The translations under genes and the position numbers were made by a program. A model generated the notes under the pieces. The model was given only the letters and a program-made list of their open reading frames with translations. It searched no databases and was not told the DNA's origin. DNA of 29,086 nucleotides from a virus: positions 1 to 29,086 of the IMG/VR virus record IMGVR_UViG_3300032213_000932; one strand, written 5' to 3'. This document shows, one piece after another, positions 7,401 to 29,086 of the stretch (position 1 is its first letter; every line of letters begins with the position of its first letter).

Positions 7401-9077
7401 ATGAGTTTTAACCTAACCATATTACAGAGTCCATTATCGGTTACGGAGACCCACTCCGACCACACTTGGAATGTAGCATTAAATAGTTATTCAGCATACA
7501 CCGATATTAGATTGGTTGTAGACATCTATAAGAACCCGTATCAGAACGATTCAGGCCCCAACAATACCACAGGAACAACACAGGAATCGGGTAAGATAGG
7601 ACGACTACTAATCCCCTGCAACGAGTTTGGTAATTGTATATTTAATGTGGAGACAATCATTAGGAATATTGTTAAACCTAATCCTCGTAATATGTCTATG
7701 ATTTACAACACCACTACTGGTGAAGCAGAATCAGACCCTTATATTGTATCCGTAACAAACTCATTATTAGTAAATGTAGACCAAGAAACCTCACAAGCAA
7801 CAATCAATAACTTACCTATCAATTTCATAAGTTTTTCTAATGGTTTCAATGGGGGTTATGAAGGGTTTGAGAATATCTATCAGGTTAATGAATATCGTTT
7901 GATATTTGGGGTTCAATACACATCAGGTGGGACAACTACCTTAATTATAGATACAACGAACTACGGGGTTTATTCAGGGTTTACAGGACAAACTATAAGT
8001 CCAGCAAGTGCCTCCACACAACCTTATGGTGTGATGGTATGGCCTGGCGTTCAAGACAACAAAAGATATGCTGTATCAAATAACCAAGCACTAACATATT
8101 ATTATTCAGGTTTCAATAAGAACGGACAATATAACTTTTGGAATACAAAGGTCTATGATTTTGCTATGAATACCGGTATTGTTCCATTCAATATTGCTGG
8201 TAGATTTATGGGGACATTTGGTGAAGAGACAAGACCTATGACTATATTGGGAGGGCCGGCAATACAAACAAGATATAGAAGTCATTATTATACTTGTCCT
8301 ATTGTATTAGGTTTTATGTATGGTGAGAATGAGTTATTCAATAATTCATCTGTCGTCAAGTCTGTAAGTATATTACAGAAGACACAAACAAACTCACAAT
8401 TAAACTACGATGTAATCTATTCACAACCTATTTCATTCACCCCAAATCCAACTGGTTATAACTCATTCTTGGGGCAGAGAATAGCCTATGTAAATTGGAA
8501 ACAAAACCCCCTATTTAGAACGAATAGTGATGTGGCGATATACTTGTCTAGTGGAGGTTGTGATACAAATTGTACTAGTGGTGTATCAGAAATAGTACAA
8601 TATAAGATGATGGATGAGGAGTGTTTCAACGACCCTGTTAATTTCTTGTTTATCAATAGAAATGGGGTATGGGATACATTCACCTTCACAAAGAAAAGTC
8701 AGTATGCCAAGACACCAAGTAAGAAGATATACGGGTCTCAAAAAACATTAAACTCTACTGTATGGAATATGCAGAGTTATGACTCAAGTGAGACAACTTA
8801 CTATGGAGATGCGATTGAGTTTATGACTGTGGCATCTAACTTTGTTAAACAGAATGATGTAGATATAATTGAGGAATTGATTTTATCCCCAACTGTATAT
8901 GTAATTAAAGATGATTGGACGCCTGAAAATAACCAACCACTTATTTATCCATATTTAATACCAGTTCAAGTATTAAACAAAGAAGTGAAAAAGTATCAAC
9001 AGAAATACGATAGAGTATTTCAATATGAATTAGAATTAAAATTAACTCCGTACCGTCAATATAATTTACCTTACTAA
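7401..9077 (+). CDS. Large tail structural protein, probably distal tail or baseplate
   Basis: This 558-residue, mainly beta protein is rich in Asn, Thr, Tyr and Gly, with no membrane segment. It starts MSFNLTILQSPLSVTETHSD and carries a Cys cluster (GGCDTNCTSG) around residues 390-400, followed by DEECFNDPVNFLFINRNGVWDTF, an edge seen in tail-tip proteins (quoted as adjoining segments). It lies between the gp10-like gene and the 1275-residue tail protein, and its stop overlaps the next ATG (TAATG at 9075-9079). I cannot assign a named family. Size, composition, and the partnership with the very large next protein suggest a distal tail, baseplate hub or receptor-apparatus component. No enzyme motif is visible. 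Confidence 0.6.
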   Translation: MSFNLTILQSPLSVTETHSDHTWNVALNSYSAYTDIRLVVDIYKNPYQNDSGPNNTTGTTQESGKIGRLLIPCNEFGNCIFNVETIIRNIVKPNPRNMSMIYNTTTGEAESDPYIVSVTNSLLVNVDQETSQATINNLPINFISFSNGFNGGYEGFENIYQVNEYRLIFGVQYTSGGTTTLIIDTTNYGVYSGFTGQTISPASASTQPYGVMVWPGVQDNKRYAVSNNQALTYYYSGFNKNGQYNFWNTKVYDFAMNTGIVPFNIAGRFMGTFGEETRPMTILGGPAIQTRYRSHYYTCPIVLGFMYGENELFNNSSVVKSVSILQKTQTNSQLNYDVIYSQPISFTPNPTGYNSFLGQRIAYVNWKQNPLFRTNSDVAIYLSSGGCDTNCTSGVSEIVQYKMMDEECFNDPVNFLFINRNGVWDTFTFTKKSQYAKTPSKKIYGSQKTLNSTVWNMQSYDSSETTYYGDAIEFMTVASNFVKQNDVDIIEELILSPTVYVIKDDWTPENNQPLIYPYLIPVQVLNKEVKKYQQKYDRVFQYELELKLTPYRQYNLPY

Positions 9078-12000
9078 TGAGTTTAAGAATCCGTACAGTA
9101 ATATCAGGTGTTCACAAATATTTAGATTTATTTGATGATGAGGACATCTTGATGTCTTTTTCAGTTGGAGAAATCCAAGACATAACATCAAAAAACTCAA
9201 GTTATTCTAAATCATTCACCTTACCAGGAACAAAGAATAATAACGACATATTCAATTATTTCTACGATGTCAATTCTGTTCCTTTGGACTTTGACCCGAA
9301 TGATAAGTTTGATGCGATTATATCTTGGGATGGTTATGAGATACTAGTTGGAAATATTCGTTTGGATGGGGTTACAATACAAGGTGAAGATTTCACTTAT
9401 CAGATTACATTTTATAATCAAGTTGGTAATTTAGCAGCAAACATAGGAGATAAGTTTTTAAGACAAACTGACCTATCACATTTATCACACCCATTTACAG
9501 AACAAGTTATACTACAATCAAATGTGGATTATAACCTATTTCCAATAACAGGTGCCACAAACTATTCATATCAAAATGGAAAAACGATGTGGGGATTATA
9601 CAACATAGGTTATTCTTATTCAGGTAATTCACCATTCATACAACCTGAAATAACCCCTTTGGTAGAGTTCTCTGACTTATCAGGATTAACATATACACCA
9701 AAGTTTGGTTATTTTGATTTTTCAGGAACCCCTGTTAATGATTATTATTTCAAGCCAACACTACAAATCAAAGAATTATATTCAAGTATAGTTCGTGATG
9801 CGGGATATGAGATACAATCTGATTTCTTTGATACATCTTATTTTGAGAGATTTTATTTACCACTAAAGTTTTTAGATGAAACAGTATATTCAAGAAACGC
9901 TATAATACCCTGTTATACTTATGAAAATCTAGGATTCTTTTTTTCAACAAGTCCACAAAGTGCTTCAACAAATCCAAGTTCAGGAGTAATTTGTAATACA
10001 CTTAATTTATCAGCAACTACAGAGTTTATCAATATCCCTCCATTTTTTGCGGGGTTATACACATTCAAGTTTAGTTATACCGCTCAAAGAAACCTTTTTA
10101 GTGGTTGTGGATTTACTATTATCAATACTGGCCCTGGTAATTTGACTTACCAATATAGAAACTCATCTGGCGTTGTATCTACTGGATTTATTCCAAGTAT
10201 AGACATAGGACTTCCATATAACGTAATTGGTGAGTTTCTTTTAATAACAGGTGGTAATGGTACGGTCACTAATGAAACTAGTTCTGATGTATCATTATTT
10301 TATAATGATTATACTAGTACTCAAGTGCTTCGCGAAGATGGACTTTGTAGTAATGAAACATCAACCACACAAGTTGAGTTCACAAAGGACTTTAATTTTA
10401 CAGGTAATTCTGATATACAATTTTATTTTTTTGGAACAAACGCAACAATATCAAACTTCAAGTTTGAGATATTCACAGGCCCAAGATTTTTAGTATCAGG
10501 TCAAACATTTGATTACGCTTTGGAGTTCCCTGATAATGATTATAAACAAATAGATTTTATAACATCTATTAACAGATATTTTAACTTGGTTGTTGTTCCA
10601 AGTCCTGATAAACCTAATACTCTTATTATTGAACCTATTGTAGATTACTTTGGAAAGGGTGAGTTATTAGATTGGACGACAAAAGTAGATTATAACCAAT
10701 TACAATCATTATCCCCAACAACATCTTTGATAAATGGAACATTACAGTTTAATTTTCAATTAGACCAAGATTATGCCAATCAGGATTTTAAGACCGCATC
10801 TAACAAGGTATTTGGAACTGATAAAATCAATCTAAATATTCCATATAAAAACTCATCAACTAACTTTACCTACATATTCTCGTCTCCTATTGACATAACC
10901 ATCAATAGCGTACAGAGTAATTATTTAACCCTATCATCGTTCTCAAAAATCAAAAATACTGATGTCACTGGTACGACATTACAACAGTTCCAACCATTTA
11001 AGATATTACCTCGTGTTGTATTTAGGGGATTGACACTACCATCATTAAACTATGGTTTTATTGGAACTGGTGCAACACAATTACAAACTTGGTATATGCA
11101 GTCATTTGGGACAACATATCCACAAACAAGATTTACAAACATCAATAGATTCACAACCTATCCTTTTAATTATAGTGGTTTTTCTCATTATATTAACTTC
11201 AGAGGAGAAGACCTTACTACCATTCAACCAAGAGAGTTTGAGTTCGTAGCAGAGGACTTATATGACATCTATTACAAAGATTATATTGATGACCTAATCA
11301 GTCCTGAAAATAAGATATACAAACTAAAAATATACCTTACCCCAAATGAAGTAAAATCACTTTTATTTAATGAAACAATACTAATTAAAAACTCATTATT
11401 TAGGATAAATAAAATAGATAATTTCAATTTGTTAGAACCATCTATTTGTGATTTGGAACTAGTCAAACTTACAAAGACCTATGACGAACATAGGAAATTA
11501 TATTATGACTTAATCCCTTGTGTATCGGGGGCAACAAGATATAGTAATTCTGACTTGAATTATAATTTATATGCTTACATAGGAAATTATGTAACCTTAT
11601 TTGATGATGATGTAAATGCGTTGGGGTGTCATCAAGTAGTTCAAGGGTCTTACAACGAAAACAATAATTATCAACATTATTATATTTCATCAGGATTTAC
11701 TCCAAACTTCGTAAATGCTTATTCTGATTGTAATTGTACTGGTTTCACAGCATTTGATGTGGTTCAGGATGGTTCAGTTGTTCCACCTGTTCCAAGTGCA
11801 ACACCAACACCAACTCCAACATCTACTCAAGTACCAACACCAACACCTACAACTACTCAAACATCAACTCCTACAACTACTCAAACACCAACGGTGACAC
11901 AGACACCAACCAATACTCAAACTCCTACAACTACTCAAACACCAACCAATACTCAAACACCAACGGTGACACAGACACCAACCAATACTCAAACTCCTAC

Positions 12001-12904
12001 AACTACTCAAACACCAACCAATACTCAAACACCAACGATTACTGCAAGTCCAACTGTATCACCAACTAATACAAATACACCGACAACAACCACTACTCAA
12101 ACCCCAACTCCATCAAATGTAGCATTTGACTCTGACGCAGCGGCATATTTGGGAAGAGTATTATTATCAGGAGGTACATTGAGTCCAACTATATCAGCGG
12201 CAACTAATACCTTCTTTACAACCTTGAAATCAACTGGTGTTTATACAAGGTTGAAGGCTATGTATCCATTCGTTGGAGGAACTGCAGCATCTCACGCTAT
12301 AAACGCTTTAACTTCAAGTCAATACACTATAACTTGGTTTGGTGGTATGTCTCACGGAGTTAGTGGTGCCACAGGTAATGGTTCTAATGCTTATGGTAGA
12401 ACAGGATACTTAAACGGATCTTGGAGTGCTAATTCAATATCTCACGGATTCTATCAACTTACTGAAAATACACCACTACAATCAGCGGAGTGTATTATGG
12501 GAGGGTTTCAGTCAGCACCATTCGTTCAAACTCATACTAACCTGAATCCAAATAGATGGGCTATTAGAAATGGGCCAGATCTTCCTGGTGCTATAACAAG
12601 TGCTAATACTGGAAATATTGATGGCTTCTATATCAATAACAGGAACTCATCAACTAATTATGGTCTATATCGTTGTAATAATTTAGTAGTATCTGCGAGT
12701 AGCACTTATACTCCTGGACCTGGAACAGTAGAACAATTCTTATTTGTTTTATCAGTTGCTAATGCACCATTTAATACAACTTATGCTAATCAAACATTAT
12801 CCTTCGCATTTATCGCGGATGGACTAACGACTCTACAAATGACCGACCTATACAACGCAGTACAAACATATCAAACATCATTAAGCAGAAGTGTGACTTG
12901 TTAA
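9077..12904 (+). CDS. Giant tail protein with Thr/Pro linker and C-terminal receptor-binding-like domain
   Basis: This 1275-residue protein, the largest in the window, has three parts. Residues 1 to about 900 are beta-rich and tail-like (LDLFDDEDILMSFSVGEIQD near the start). Residues of about 905-1012 are a repetitive Thr/Pro/Gln/Asn linker. Residues 1015-1275 form a globular domain starting AAAYLGRVLLSGGT, with YPFVGGTAASH, TWFGGMSHGVSGATGNGSN and a helical LQMTDLYNAVQTYQTSL end. That last domain is clearly related to the end of the protein at 20831-22693, and I have seen the pattern widely in Bacteroidota phage virion proteins. The likely role is a tail-tip or side-fibre protein with the C-terminal domain held outward for host contact. 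A small partner gene follows. Confidence 0.75.
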   Translation: MSLRIRTVISGVHKYLDLFDDEDILMSFSVGEIQDITSKNSSYSKSFTLPGTKNNNDIFNYFYDVNSVPLDFDPNDKFDAIISWDGYEILVGNIRLDGVTIQGEDFTYQITFYNQVGNLAANIGDKFLRQTDLSHLSHPFTEQVILQSNVDYNLFPITGATNYSYQNGKTMWGLYNIGYSYSGNSPFIQPEITPLVEFSDLSGLTYTPKFGYFDFSGTPVNDYYFKPTLQIKELYSSIVRDAGYEIQSDFFDTSYFERFYLPLKFLDETVYSRNAIIPCYTYENLGFFFSTSPQSASTNPSSGVICNTLNLSATTEFINIPPFFAGLYTFKFSYTAQRNLFSGCGFTIINTGPGNLTYQYRNSSGVVSTGFIPSIDIGLPYNVIGEFLLITGGNGTVTNETSSDVSLFYNDYTSTQVLREDGLCSNETSTTQVEFTKDFNFTGNSDIQFYFFGTNATISNFKFEIFTGPRFLVSGQTFDYALEFPDNDYKQIDFITSINRYFNLVVVPSPDKPNTLIIEPIVDYFGKGELLDWTTKVDYNQLQSLSPTTSLINGTLQFNFQLDQDYANQDFKTASNKVFGTDKINLNIPYKNSSTNFTYIFSSPIDITINSVQSNYLTLSSFSKIKNTDVTGTTLQQFQPFKILPRVVFRGLTLPSLNYGFIGTGATQLQTWYMQSFGTTYPQTRFTNINRFTTYPFNYSGFSHYINFRGEDLTTIQPREFEFVAEDLYDIYYKDYIDDLISPENKIYKLKIYLTPNEVKSLLFNETILIKNSLFRINKIDNFNLLEPSICDLELVKLTKTYDEHRKLYYDLIPCVSGATRYSNSDLNYNLYAYIGNYVTLFDDDVNALGCHQVVQGSYNENNNYQHYYISSGFTPNFVNAYSDCNCTGFTAFDVVQDGSVVPPVPSATPTPTPTSTQVPTPTPTTTQTSTPTTTQTPTVTQTPTNTQTPTTTQTPTNTQTPTVTQTPTNTQTPTTTQTPTNTQTPTITASPTVSPTNTNTPTTTTTQTPTPSNVAFDSDAAAYLGRVLLSGGTLSPTISAATNTFFTTLKSTGVYTRLKAMYPFVGGTAASHAINALTSSQYTITWFGGMSHGVSGATGNGSNAYGRTGYLNGSWSANSISHGFYQLTENTPLQSAECIMGGFQSAPFVQTHTNLNPNRWAIRNGPDLPGAITSANTGNIDGFYINNRNSSTNYGLYRCNNLVVSASSTYTPGPGTVEQFLFVLSVANAPFNTTYANQTLSFAFIADGLTTLQMTDLYNAVQTYQTSLSRSVTC
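11878..12037 (+). repeat. 72-base tandem repeat within the Thr/Pro linker
   Basis: Bases 11878-11965 recur exactly at 11950-12037, so a 72-base (24-codon) unit is present about 2.2 times. The unit is built from shorter ACCAACCAATACTCAAAC-like blocks. The reading frame is kept. A recent unequal exchange or slippage event would give this pattern. Confidence 0.85.
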
Positions 12905-12920
12905 AATAAAAAAAAAATAT

Positions 12921-13148
12921 ATGATAGTAGGATTATTAACAATAGAACAAAAAGACCAATTAGTTGGAGTTGAAGTCCAATATGATTGGTATTTCAATCC
13001 AGTACAAGATGGAAATGGAGATTGGATTATATCAACTCAAGAAATAGATAATAATACAAATCCTGATGTTATGTGGGTAAAAGATTTACCACTAATTGAA
13101 TATGTACCATTACCACCAACTGAAGATATATCATTATCAATAATTTAA
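12921..13148 (+). CDS. Small partner protein of the linker-type fibre, paralogue of 22695-22946
   Basis: This 75-residue acidic protein lies 16 bases after the giant tail protein. It shares LTI-QKD-LVG, YFNP, an IS-EIDN segment and WVKDL with the 83-residue product at 22695-22946. The paralogue also sits directly after a protein ending in the related C-terminal domain. The pairing suggests the small protein works with that domain, for example as a folding chaperone or a bound cap, but no motif shows this. An A-rich leader precedes ATG 12921, with no Shine-Dalgarno site. Confidence 0.75.
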   Translation: MIVGLLTIEQKDQLVGVEVQYDWYFNPVQDGNGDWIISTQEIDNNTNPDVMWVKDLPLIEYVPLPPTEDISLSII

Positions 13149-13161
13149 TAAAATAAAAAAA

Positions 13162-13175
13162 TATATTTATAAGTA
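13162..13175 (+). promoter_or_regulatory. TATATTTATAAGTA motif before 13178
   Basis: This is the same 14-mer as at 5482-5495, also after an A-rich run and two bases before an ATG. A gap of 29 bases from the preceding gene, larger than usual here, fits a new transcription unit. Confidence 0.45.
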
Positions 13176-13177
13176 AT

Positions 13178-14473
13178 ATGAGTTGTATAACATACCTACA
13201 TAATGACCCTTTTGATAGTGGTGGAACAAAGTTTATTTCGGGAACTACTTGTGATGGTTCGGCGACATCTTATAACCTAACCTTTGGTAGTTTTGCCTGT
13301 ATGGAGGCGGAACTACCATTAGTAATATGTGATGGTTTAACTATTTCAGGATCTTGTATTCCTCCAACCCCAAGTCCAACTCCAACTACTACAACAACTC
13401 CAACTACTACAACAACTACTACAACAACTCCAACAACAACTCCAACTCCTTCATTTTGTTCTAATCCTCTGGTATGGGGTATATTTGATTCCAATAGTGG
13501 CAGAGTAGCATTAGCCTCTTGGATGACAGCTCAAGGTAGTACTTGGAAAGGGTTTAACTCTGTTCCATCCGCACCATCTACAGTATTAGCAACATTTGAG
13601 GCACAGATGAACGCATATATTAGTTATTCAGGGTGGGGAGTAACAGCATTTTCTTTGGTAAGTTCAGTAATGAGTTATAATCAAGACCCTATTTTACTTC
13701 TTAATAGTGTAAATAGTTGGAGCGGTGATTTTACTTGGGTCTCCCTTTTAGTTCCTTCTTGTGCTGTTTGCCCTGATGGGGAATATGGACTTATTGGGGA
13801 CACTAGTTTACCCGTTTATACAACATCTAATACATATAGAAGTTTGGAGTTTTATTATTCTGGTTCATCCATACCACAGGGTTATTATAGATTTTACTCA
13901 ACATTCAGTAATACGGCTATGAGAAATGCAGTTTCATCATTTGAGTATTCTCTTGGGTCGTTGGTTTGTCCTACTCCAACCCCAACACCAACTAATACTA
14001 CAACTCCAACAACAACACCAACTAATACCTCAACACCTGCGGGAACAACCCCAACTTCAACCCCAACTAACACAGGAACACCAACAAATACTACCACCCC
14101 AACTGCAACAACTACCCGAACACCGACACCAACACCTAATCCATATTGTTATACAATAACAACCCAACAAAGTGCTCCTGGTGAATGTTTTGATTGTCCT
14201 GGATATTTCGCAAGCACAACAGATACGATTATAGAGTTCTTTAATGGTTGTAGCGGAACTACAATAAATGCTCCATTTAATATGAATGTAATAGCACATT
14301 ATAGCGATAGTTCAACAGGAACTACCTACATATCTGGTGGAACAGTTGGTAGTGTAGTTATTGCTACAAGTGATATACAATGTGCTCCACTACCTGCTTG
14401 TGGTGAGGTCGCAAGTCCAACATTTGACTTCCTTACTATATCAGGTGGAACTATTAGTGAATGTTGTGTCTGA
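13178..14473 (+). CDS. Three-domain, Cys-rich appendage protein joined by Thr/Pro linkers
   Basis: This 431-residue protein is modular. An N-terminal domain (1-61) has Cys in MSCITYLH, TTCDGS, FACMEAE and VICDG. Linker 1 (about 62-91) is nearly all Thr and Pro. A middle domain (92-264) begins FCSNPLVWGIFDSNSG and contains SCAVCPDGEYGL. Linker 2 (265-320) has repeated TPTNT units. A C-terminal domain (321-431) has PGECFDCPG and ends ISECCV. No catalytic motif or membrane segment is seen. The linkers are the same type as in the fibre proteins at 9077 and 20831, and the gene lies between a fibre module and the tape measure, so it is probably a virion surface or tail appendage. No family is assigned to its globular domains. 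Confidence 0.65.
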   Translation: MSCITYLHNDPFDSGGTKFISGTTCDGSATSYNLTFGSFACMEAELPLVICDGLTISGSCIPPTPSPTPTTTTTPTTTTTTTTTPTTTPTPSFCSNPLVWGIFDSNSGRVALASWMTAQGSTWKGFNSVPSAPSTVLATFEAQMNAYISYSGWGVTAFSLVSSVMSYNQDPILLLNSVNSWSGDFTWVSLLVPSCAVCPDGEYGLIGDTSLPVYTTSNTYRSLEFYYSGSSIPQGYYRFYSTFSNTAMRNAVSSFEYSLGSLVCPTPTPTPTNTTTPTTTPTNTSTPAGTTPTSTPTNTGTPTNTTTPTATTTRTPTPTPNPYCYTITTQQSAPGECFDCPGYFASTTDTIIEFFNGCSGTTINAPFNMNVIAHYSDSSTGTTYISGGTVGSVVIATSDIQCAPLPACGEVASPTFDFLTISGGTISECCV

Positions 14474-20830: not shown

Positions 20831-22693
20831 ATGATATTATTAAAATCCAACCAACTTAATAAGATTGTTGTAACGCTCACACAGAATACTACTGTTTGTG
20901 ACCCTGAATACTTATTTCAATTTATCCATATATTCTCAAAAAAAGAGGTAGATTTTATCTTGCCTGATGTATCACCGCATCCAACGAGGTATAATCAATT
21001 TGAGTTTGTTGAAGGTCAAGGTGTGGGTCAAATAGCATTTCCTTATGAAGGACAATATAATTATTATGTGTACGCCCAACCATTTGGTTCGGGTAATCTA
21101 AATCCATTATTAGCCACCGAGTTGGTAGAAAATGGTATTGCCGAGTTTATTGTTGTGAGTGCGGATACAACAAATGAAAATTATTTTGAGTTTATTTCTG
21201 ATGATGAGTTTAACTCTAATACAATATTTGCTCCTGATGAGATAAACCCTCCAACACCTTCTCCGACACCAGGATTAAGTCCTACTCCAACTCCAAGTAT
21301 TACTGCTTCTCCAACGCCAACTAATACTCAAACACCAACTAATACTAGTACAACTACGCAGACACCTACTCCAACGCCAACTAATACTCAAACACAGACA
21401 CCTACGGTTACACAAACTCCAACAAATACTGGTACTCAAACACAGACACCAACACCAAGCATAACGGCTAGTGCAACACAGACACCTACTCCAACAAATA
21501 CTTTAACACCGACTAATACGGCTAGTCCTACACAGACCCCAACTCCAAGTATCACAGCGACGAATACTCAAACTCCAACTGTGACACCAACTAATACTGC
21601 AAGTGAAACACCAACACAAACACCTACGAATACATCTACTCCAACTAATACTCCAAGTCAAACTCAAACACAGACCCCTACAAATACCGAAACTCCAACT
21701 CAAACACCTACGATTACACAAACACCAACTAATACTACAACTCCAACAAATACTCCTACAAATACACTAACACCGACAAATACAGAAACCCCAACAAATA
21801 CCCCCACTCCAACAAATACAGAAACCCCAACAAATACTCCAACAAATACTCCTACAAATACACTAACACCAACAAATACTTCAACACCAACACAAACACA
21901 AACACCAAGTTCCACTCCACCAGCAAGTGGAACAACTCAAGCAAATGCTTATTTGAGAGCGGTTGTTGATGCGGGTGGAACAGGTATTACTTCAACTGTA
22001 TCTGCGGCAACTGTCACATTATTTACCTCTTTGGTTAGTAATGGATTGTATGACAAGATTACAGCATTCTATCCTCTATTGGGAGGTAATAGTAATGGTT
22101 GTAAGTTTAATGGTAAAAATCCTGTTGATACAGATGCTGGATATAGATTGACCTTCTTTGGTGGTTGGACTTTTGATACATCTGGTGCGACATCAAACGG
22201 AACAACTGCTTATGCTGATACATTCTTGGCTCCATCGGCACAAACCTTGAATAGTCAGCATTTAGGTATTTATCTTAGCAATAATAACGCACCAGTTGGT
22301 ACGGGTAGGATTTACATAGGTGCCGCCTCTCCAACAAGATATTGTTTAATAGGACAATCTGGAGTTGCTAGTTGGTTTTATGGTTTAAGTTCTGGTGGTG
22401 ATGGTCCTGTATCATCTAGCAGACAAGGTATGATTATAGCCGCTTCAAGTGGAGGAACTATTGATGCGATATACAGAAATGGAACTCTATTTAGTAGTTT
22501 TAGTGCTATTAGAGGTGTTATAAATGTTAACAATTATATTGGAGCGTTTAATAATAATGGAAGTCCTCAACAATATTACGCAAACCAATATACATTTGCG
22601 ACTATTGGTTCAGGATTAACCGCAGCACAAGTATCAACATTATCAACCATAATAAACACTTTCCAAACAACATTAGGACGAAATACATATTAA
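20831..22693 (+). CDS. Fibre protein with virion-anchor domain, long Thr/Pro linker and receptor-binding-like domain
   Basis: This 620-residue protein has three parts. The N-terminal domain (1 to about 137), with [22 protein letters not shown] and a [13 protein letters not shown] strand, matches a small virion-anchoring protein I know from Bacteroidota phages. Residues of about 138-363 are a repetitive Thr/Pro/Asn/Gln linker. Residues 365-620 form a globular domain ([46 protein letters not shown]) related to the end of the 9077-12904 product. The likely role is a flexible fibre or capsid appendage presenting a host-contact domain. The start ATG 20831 lies just after the terminator-like hairpin. 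The small paralogue gene follows after one base. Confidence 0.8.
21244..21924 (+). repeat. Degenerate tandem repeats encoding a Thr/Pro linker
   Basis: About 680 bases are made of six- to eighteen-base units (ACNCCNACNAAYACN and relatives) encoding TPTNTQTP-type peptides. Several longer blocks recur exactly, for example CCAACAAATACAGAAACCCC twice between 21778 and 21831. The opposite strand shows spurious Val/Gly open frames because of the composition. Confidence 0.85.
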
Positions 22694-28101: not shown

Positions 28102-28172
28102 AGACACCAAAAAAAAGGTTTTCCTACTGCCATCCACCTTTTTCCCCTACTATTCGGTAGGGGTTTTTTTTT
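28102..28172 (+). ncRNA. Candidate small RNA or opposed terminators between convergent genes
   Basis: Two hairpins stand side by side. The first pairs AAAAAGGT (28112-28119) with ACCTTTTT (28136-28143). The second pairs CCCCTAC (28144-28150) with GTAGGGG (28157-28163), followed by T9. With the motif at 28088 this could be a 65-70 nt RNA. The simpler reading is two terminators: the second for rightward transcripts, and the first, which on the minus strand is followed by more T, for the leftward gene. The CCTAC in the loop of hairpin 1 could also compete for GTAGG. Confidence 0.35.
28144..28172 (+). terminator. Rho-independent terminator, rightward
   Basis: A seven-pair G/C-rich stem (CCCCTAC with GTAGGGG) encloses TATTCG and is followed by nine T. 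It lies after the small operon and overlaps the 3' end of the convergent minus-strand gene, whose stop codon is inside the stem. Confidence 0.85.
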
Positions 28173-28563
28173 GTCTTCTGTTAGGGTGTGGGTCTCCATT
28201 TGGGAGGAATGATGTAATATGTTTTTTCTTTTTGTATTTCAAGGGTTTTAAGAGGGTCTGGTTGATTTTATCTACAAACTGATGGTGTATGTCCTTTTCA
28301 AGATTATAACCCATTAGGCTCAAGATTTCCCACATATCCTTGTAATCTTTTGGAGTGGTTCCTGCCATTGAAAAATGTAAATCACTATTTTGTCTAAACT
28401 TGATATTAAAGGGGTGTGTAGTTGACTGACCTTTTGTTGAAAGCCTCCCTTGATTTTTACACATTTTACAGACCTTACTAACACCATCTTTACATTGCTT
28501 ACACTTATAGAATGAGGTTATGTCTTTTTCAACTTGACACGAATTACATATTATTTTTTCCAT
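28150..28563 (-). CDS. Zinc-ribbon protein, possibly HNH/endonuclease-related
   Basis: This is the only convincing minus-strand gene. The 137-residue protein has an N-terminal Cys cluster, C6-x2-C9 then C21, C24, C32 and C35 (ICNSCQVEKDITSFYK, CKQCKDG, VCKMCKN). This is the kind of zinc ribbon that leads phage HNH or endonuclease VII-like proteins. The rest contains DLHFSMAGTTPKDYKDMW and MGYNLEKDIHHQFVDKIN, a pattern I recall from small Bacteroidota phage proteins of unknown role, and ends very basic. No complete HNH motif is visible, so nuclease activity is doubtful. It lies between convergent and divergent plus-strand genes, like a moron. Its ATG at 28563 follows a TATATTTATTTAT motif on the minus strand. 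Confidence 0.75.
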   Translation of the reverse strand: MEKIICNSCQVEKDITSFYKCKQCKDGVSKVCKMCKNQGRLSTKGQSTTHPFNIKFRQNSDLHFSMAGTTPKDYKDMWEILSLMGYNLEKDIHHQFVDKINQTLLKPLKYKKKKHITSFLPNGDPHPNRRQKKTPTE

Positions 28564-28576
28564 ATAAATAAATATA
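28564..28576 (-). promoter_or_regulatory. TATATTTATTTAT motif before the minus-strand gene
   Basis: On the minus strand, TATATTTATTTAT directly precedes the ATG at 28563-28561. The motif therefore follows gene orientation, which supports a functional role rather than base composition alone. Confidence 0.4.
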
Positions 28577-28630
28577 GGGATTTTAGGAAAAGTTTTTGTT
28601 GGATAATATTTATCTTTTACATATGACCCC

Positions 28631-28640
28631 TATATTTATT
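28631..28640 (+). promoter_or_regulatory. TATATTTATT motif before the structured RNA
   Basis: A further core match lies three bases before the first hairpin of the structured region 28643-28740, in the divergent gap between the minus-strand gene and the replication-type gene. A second, weaker copy, AATATTTAT, is at 28605-28613. Confidence 0.35.
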
Positions 28641-28642
28641 AT

Positions 28643-28740
28643 TGTCCCTTCTGACAACACAGGACATTAAAGAAATTATAGAACCCCTGTAAAGTATTCC
28701 TTGAAGTCAGAAGCAAGAGAAGAAATACGGGGGTTTTTTT
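28643..28740 (+). ncRNA. Candidate structured leader RNA with kissing hairpin loops and terminator
   Basis: Hairpin 1 pairs TGTCC (28643-28647) with GGACA (28662-28666), and its loop contains CTTCTGAC (28648-28655). Hairpin 2 pairs CTTG (28700-28703) with CAAG (28714-28717), and its loop contains GTCAGAAG (28706-28713). The two loop octamers are exact complements. Hairpin 2 sits in the loop of a terminator-type stem (28682-28691 with 28726-28735) followed by a T run to 28740. The region is divergent, so no upstream rightward gene needs a terminator here. A conditional leader or a stand-alone RNA is therefore suggested. I recognise no known RNA family. Confidence 0.5.
28682..28740 (+). terminator. 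Terminator-type stem just before the replication gene start
   Basis: AACCCCTGTA (28682-28691) pairs with TACGGGGGTT (28726-28735), with one G-T pair, and seven T run from 28734 to 28740. ATG 28747 lies six bases after. The 34-base loop itself holds a small hairpin. As placed, it would attenuate the following gene. Confidence 0.65.
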
Positions 28741-28746
28741 ATTATT

Positions 28747-29086
28747 ATGGAAAAAAGAAAAGCATTCAACTTCTACAGAAGTTATTATGATGTGGCAATG
28801 AACTTGTCAAATGAAGATAGATGTGAGTTTTTGACCGCACTACTCCAAAAACAATTTGATGGTATTGAACCAAAATTAACTGGTATGGCAGAGTTTGCGT
28901 ATATTTCACAAAGACACGCTATAGATTCACAAATTAAAGGATTTGTAAGTAAAACAAAATCTAGCCCTACCGAACCCCCTTACCAACCCCCTACCGAACC
29001 CCCTTACCAACCCCCTACCGAACCCCCTTACCAACCCCCTACCGAACCCCCTTACCAACCCCCTACCGAACCCCCTTCGGTACAAG
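28747..29086 (+). CDS. DUF6291-type replication protein, N-terminal part (cut by window end)
   Basis: About 113 residues are visible from ATG 28747. The start [20 protein letters not shown], the [17 protein letters not shown] helix and [20 protein letters not shown] match the DUF6291 domain, which in phages heads proteins used in replication initiation. The next 40 residues are an eight-residue repeat of the PTEPPYQP type, encoded by 24-base direct repeats. In relatives this place is a variable linker before the rest of the protein, which here lies outside the window. The gene has no Shine-Dalgarno site and starts right after a terminator-type hairpin, so its expression is probably controlled in the leader. 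It may also carry the origin of replication within its own sequence. Confidence 0.8.
28966..29077 (+). repeat. 24-base direct repeats inside the replication gene, iteron-like
   Basis: A 24-base unit (CCTACCGAACC, CCCTTACCAACCC) begins at 28966, 28990, 29014 and 29038 in exact copies, with a 16-base partial copy at 29062. Each unit encodes [14 protein letters not shown] at 29065-29070 also pairs with TTCGGT at 29076-29081 around CCCCC, so the array ends in an inverted repeat. There are no spacers, which excludes CRISPR. Confidence 0.9.

Follow-up and report, generated by a model that had tools for sequence, protein, structure and literature searches.

The window analysed here is the whole of a 29,086-bp stretch from a virus record, which codes for the structural genes of a tailed phage, including the terminase large subunit. 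Several of the structural proteins contain long PT/PTPTNT repeats of variable length (9077-14473, 20831-22693). Just before the terminase (1042-3868) are ORFs for a DNA methylase (N6_N4_Mtase), a second methylase-like protein and a DUF559/restriction-nuclease-like protein; L004 and L005 have different methylase-like ORFs ahead of the terminase.

Near the right end of the window, past the late genes and a short divergent gene, is the site of a two-hairpin RNA (Table 1). The divergent gene, for an endonuclease VII-like zinc protein, is on the minus strand, in agreement with the first-pass annotation, which had described the region as divergent. The protein is strongly diverged between phages in which the RNA is nearly identical. 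An inverted repeat lies between this gene and the RNA. Each of its arms contains a -7 box, the two boxes being mirror images of each other; one belongs to the RNA and the other to the divergent gene, the ATG of which (28563) would be almost leaderless.

Table 1. Coordinates of the RNA, its parts and the neighbouring features in the window.
Feature	Position	Strand	Remarks
Short endonuclease VII-like zinc protein	28150..28563	-	PHROG E 1.4e-5
Inverted repeat AATAAATATAGGG / CCCTATATTTATT	28567..28580 and 28627..28640		
Predicted -7 promoter box TATATTTA, Bacteroidota sigmaA type	28631..28638	+	Predicted start ~28643; box spacing kept in the family
Two-hairpin RNA	28643..28740	+	~98 nt, from sequence reading and folding
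Hairpin P1	28643..28666	+	28643-28647 (TGTCC) pairs with 28662-28666 (GGACA); five of five pairs change on both sides; 96.8% of cells paired
Loop of P1	28648..28661	+	Opens with CTTCTGAC
Predicted kissing loop L1, CTTCTGAC	28648..28655	+	8/8 match to L2 in every member; 10 alleles
A/U-rich single-stranded linker	28667..28679	+	TTAAAGAAATTAT in most members; degenerate in phi18:3 and L026
Terminator hairpin P2	28680..28737	+	28680-28691 pairs with 28726-28737, and apically 28697-28703 with 28714-28721, with one bulge (28718); lowest-energy fold; lower stem pairs despite unrelated sequences across groups
Loop of P2	28704..28713	+	AAGTCAGAAG
Predicted kissing loop L2, GTCAGAAG, within the terminator apical loop	28706..28713	+	Reading and family comparison
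Intrinsic terminator T run	28734..28740	+	T run after the hairpin in all members
First gene 3' of the RNA, DUF6291 protein	28747..29086, open at window end	+	Pfam PF19808, E 2.2e-7
24-bp repeats, CCCTACCGAACCCCCTTACCAACC	28965..29077		4.7 copies, 100% identical

Fold and predicted transcript of the RNA

The loop of the first hairpin, P1, begins with eight bases (L1) that are perfectly complementary to eight bases (L2) in the apical loop of the second hairpin, P2. P2 has the form of an intrinsic terminator, with a T run at its 3' side, and the ATG of the next gene follows after six bases. Both the complementary loops and the placement of the second loop inside a terminator stem had been pointed out in the first-pass annotation, and reading and folding confirmed the coordinates.

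In all 25 sequences folded, P1 and P2 with open loops are either the minimum or within 1.7 kcal/mol of it, and the alternative in which the loop-loop helix is imposed as a nested stem lies 1.4 to 12.5 kcal/mol above P1+P2. As the two hairpins are favoured with their loops free, in this folding model the loops most likely form a kissing contact in addition to P1 and P2. The computed strength of the 8-bp duplex is -9.9 to -10.3 kcal/mol, with one allele at -11.7, and nine of the ten loop alleles have four GC pairs out of eight, which hints that duplex strength is held constant while the loop sequence drifts. A nested loop-loop hairpin with an outer CCCC/GGGGG stem is the lowest-energy fold when folding begins at 28625, and was rejected as an artefact of the chosen start: its 5' arm is the promoter and is not conserved.

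A strict TANNTTTR box is found 9-12 nt before loop 1 in 20 of the 27 distinct members, compared with 2.4% of random windows from the same loci, and most of the remaining members have a near match. In flavobacteria the -7 box, TAnnTTTG, spans -12 to -5 (PMC9723704), and transcription is therefore predicted to start at the base of P1, at 28643 in the window. There is no clear -33 TTG in the window. Transcripts starting after 28740 would have spoken against the first-pass reading; the predicted start lies upstream of that point, and all 27 lack a TANNTTTR box between loop 1 and the ATG. The ATG is typically 5-22 nt past the T run (the value is 0 in three members, where the first ATG shares bases with the end of the T run). 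On sequence prediction a terminator thus stands between promoter and gene, with no box in between, which is the arrangement that characterises an attenuator. Since there is no box between RNA and ATG, the genes behind the RNA should be expressed by read-through, and a promoter type outside the scan could also contribute to their expression.

Comparative evidence for the loop-loop pairing

The 8-bp match between the loops is not significant in the window alone, where several other chance inverted repeats of 8-10 nt lie near the site. It counts as significant because relatives keep the complementarity. In the closest relative, L002, the first protein of which is 97% identical over 72 residues, the loops are GTCTTCAC and GTGAAGAC; four of the eight pairs have double compensatory changes, while most of the leader is unchanged.

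Pattern scans found the same RNA in at least 35 phage records, with at least 27 distinct sequences, among them Cellulophaga phage phi18:3. Two of these scans set no requirement for a loop match. The first fixed only the linker, TTGANGT and CAA, and its result was bimodal: 31 matches have 8/8 complementary loop positions, none has 7/8, and the rest have 4-6/8 and are unrelated. The second, with a fully free 10-nt loop, recovered at least 12 family members, all of them 8/8 complementary; two matches at 7/8, among the matches listed, both lack the family anatomy and are non-members. Across all 27 distinct sequences collected there are ten loop alleles, each perfectly matched by its partner loop. 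Loss of this complementarity in relatives had been proposed as the observation that would overturn the first-pass reading, and the loops instead pair throughout.

Covariation was assessed in an alignment of 25 distinct sequences. Of the pairs in the three helices 99.1% are standard, 11 pairs are changed on both sides, and the covariation score is 0.449, compared with 0.115 in shuffles; the signal is lost when the partners are slid. For the whole structure there are 67 double-changed cells, compared with 20.7 in shuffles. The kissing helix, P1 and the terminator stem all covary. The kissing helix is 100% paired in the alignment partly by construction, as members were gathered with a perfect match, and the unrestricted scans are the unbiased evidence. 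Five of the eight kissing positions are variable, and U5, A7 and C8 of L1 are constant, even where the scan left these positions free. The closing pair above the invariant UUG/CAA can be CG, GC, AU or GU, and the lower stem of the terminator keeps its pairing between groups with differing sequences. Together, the comparison shows an RNA that consists of P1, an A/U linker and an intrinsic terminator hairpin, with an apical loop predicted to pair with the P1 loop over 8 bp. This structure is well supported.

Downstream genes, distribution and known RNAs

Unrelated phages have the RNA at the front of their replication module, with one copy per phage record (other matches are weak, E >=0.03). In phages of the window type the gene behind it codes for a DUF6291 protein, a DnaD/O-like replication initiation protein or a member of an unmatched family. 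In those of the second type it is followed by DUF6291 and then a DnaB-like ATPase, or by other genes, an initiator-type gene coming later. The RNA of phi18:3 precedes a small gene and an annotated DnaD-like helicase loader. DUF6291 is a domain of no known function, and its link to replication rests on position: in relatives the same place is taken by replication initiation or DnaD-like loader proteins, followed in some by a DnaB-like helicase. The first-pass annotation's phrase 'replication gene' is therefore right in context. The 24-bp repeats inside the DUF6291 gene of the window look like origin iterons; L002 carries these repeats with changes and in fewer copies. In L027/L036-type phages a co-directional gene ends ~24 nt upstream of the RNA, and there the terminator could also serve this upstream gene.

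RNAs that are ~90-95% identical outside the kissing loops precede first genes which are non-homologous by BLASTP. The first gene is thus swapped behind near-identical RNAs, so the RNA belongs to the module and not to one gene. For the same reason autogenous control, with the product of the first gene as a gene-specific repressor, is unlikely.

In searches of named phages and plasmids phi18:3 was the sole match (E 0.007, with L036 as query). The hosts are most likely Bacteroidota, given that phi18:3 infects Cellulophaga baltica and given the promoter type. A pattern scan of host-genome contigs gave 15 matches, none with the family anatomy, and a covariance-model search detected no copy in 694 bacterial genomes (299 from one family, 395 from one class), under stricter filters and without a positive control; absence from bacterial genomes is therefore provisional.

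Rfam 15 gave no matches at the gathering threshold in the window and eight relatives, and the RNA region alone gave only chance matches far below gathering. Literature searches found no description of this RNA. The first-pass annotation, too, knew of no described family with such a layout. We class the RNA as an undescribed family within the attenuator kind, and one in which comparison supports a tertiary contact with unusual clarity.

Plasmid copy-number RNAs (ColE1 RNAI/RNAII and pT181-type attenuators) control replication through kissing loops, some of them with transcription attenuation. They use a separate antisense transcript, whereas here a single sense transcript carries both loops. 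A conserved antisense promoter opposite the leader was not observed: 7 of the 27 have a TANNTTTG box within 200 nt on the other strand, at positions that are not conserved. The HK022 put RNA, likewise with two hairpins, stands at the beginning of a phage early module and acts on transcription; to our knowledge it has no terminator and no loop-loop pairing. Two hairpins are also joined by loop-loop pairing in the guanidine-II riboswitch and in RsaOG/RsaI. The present RNA differs from these in having no Rfam match, no metabolic gene downstream and a loop sequence that varies by allele.

The CI RNA of satellite phage P4 (c4 antisense RNA, RF01695) is similar in that an untranslated leader precedes replication genes and RNA-RNA pairing controls premature termination, according to PMC4825925. 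It differs in being a processed antisense RNA that pairs with separate seqA/seqC sites; in the kissing-loop leader a single 98-nt RNA contains the two complementary loops, of which one is the loop of an intrinsic terminator. The c4 covariance model had no match, and P4-type target sites outside the RNA were not found, the loop words occurring elsewhere in eight phage genomes only at chance level. IsrK, of the Salmonella prophage Gifsy-1, is also a short RNA that ends at an intrinsic terminator, past which some of its transcripts continue into the next gene, but it acts in trans on translation of its read-through form and is associated with different genes, and the passages on IsrK in PMC4825925 describe no kissing hairpin-terminator. 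In its mode of action the RNA would resemble attenuators of phages and plasmids (P4 CI, IsrK-type read-through, plasmid kissing RNAs), but it does not pass the tests that define them, as far as these were applied.

Probable attenuation in cis and competing explanations

We infer a regulatory role for the RNA, and consider it fairly likely that it is a ~98-nt phage leader, transcribed by the host RNA polymerase from its own sigmaA-type promoter, which attenuates the replication module in cis. Polymerase would start at the base of P1 and, by default, most polymerases would halt at the T run, releasing the ~98-nt RNA. The kissing contact would form as L2 leaves the polymerase, docking the terminator hairpin against P1 and so setting the efficiency of termination, and the replication genes would be made only by read-through. 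The RNA probably sets the timing or strength of phage replication. Candidates for a signal that would alter docking or termination are a phage protein, a host factor, RNA dosage and growth state. An antiterminator structure competing with the terminator was not found, and termination could be constitutive. The first-pass annotation had offered two interpretations. A tertiary-structure-controlled attenuator remains the best reading of the predicted features; a small RNA like those that control plasmid copy number finds little direct support, as the loops have no further partner site in the eight phage genomes beyond chance.

Two other kinds of regulation were considered and rejected. For a translation-coupled (leader peptide) attenuator, there is no upstream ATG in the window leader, and the upstream ATGs of relatives are scattered, with no conserved leader ORF. 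The antitoxin RNA of a Type III toxin-antitoxin system would be a set of tandem pseudoknot repeats before a ToxN endoribonuclease; here there is a single RNA unit, and the downstream gene is DUF6291 or replication initiation.

The RNA's own predicted promoter and terminator, its 5' end at a hairpin and its compact fold would suit a phage small RNA acting in trans on host transcripts, as would a first downstream gene that varies and is a small unknown protein in some phages. Kissing would then only stabilise the fold, and the terminator would lie before replication genes by chance. We think this unlikely, as the RNA opens the replication module in every case, the ATG follows closely behind the terminator and there is no separate promoter, and the absence of extra partner sites for the loops applies here too.

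Less likely still, each lineage may have a private, self-matching loop pair, such that the RNA, once released, acts in trans: it would kiss L1 or L2 on nascent leaders that share its allele and alter their termination, along the lines of plasmid copy control or satellite P4 CI RNA. This would limit the replication genes and shut out co-infecting phages with the same allele, so that RNA alone would provide copy-number control and keep related phages out. Among the seven closest copies, 8 of 16 loop columns are variable, compared with 11 of 76 elsewhere (Fisher p 0.004, with paired columns not independent), and varying loops always have matched partners. The near-constant GC count of the alleles points the same way, as does the related sRNA/read-through design of the prophage RNA IsrK in the passages of PMC4825925 that deal with it. 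The second group shows no excess of loop variation, the intramolecular contact should beat an intermolecular one, and no integrase or lysogeny repressor was noticed among the window ORFs on non-systematic inspection, all of which make such a loop code doubtful.

It is very improbable that the RNA in its folded form associates with RNA polymerase or a host factor to give a termination-resistant complex, as put RNA does in HK022. Two hairpins at the start of an early module would suit such a read-through element, and a near-identical RNA before non-homologous genes points to a general partner rather than a gene-specific one; unlike put, the RNA ends in a canonical terminator. A DNA-level element of the replication origin (a cruciform or single-strand origin) would fit the position before replication genes and the iteron-like repeats in the first gene of the window, and is scarcely credible given the promoter at fixed spacing, the T run, the sense-strand GU among the departures in P1, the GU pairs of P2 that would be AC mismatches on the other strand, and an 8-nt loop kissing of a stability typical of RNA.

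Under attenuation in cis, the RNA would be located where replication seems chiefly to be switched on or off in a phage group that has been little studied, which suggests that these phages gate genome copying through transcription termination. It would also be a small natural system that allows termination, kissing-loop stability and loop specificity to be changed independently of one another, and the cultured carrier, Cellulophaga phage phi18:3, makes direct testing feasible.

The place of the RNA is occupied differently in L016 (5826-6075). The upstream 271-residue protein is 98% identical. Directly behind the same promoter, ~250 nt of non-coding sequence that may be structured, and for which there is no Rfam match, and a GIY-YIG-like ORF stand in place of the RNA and the replication gene.
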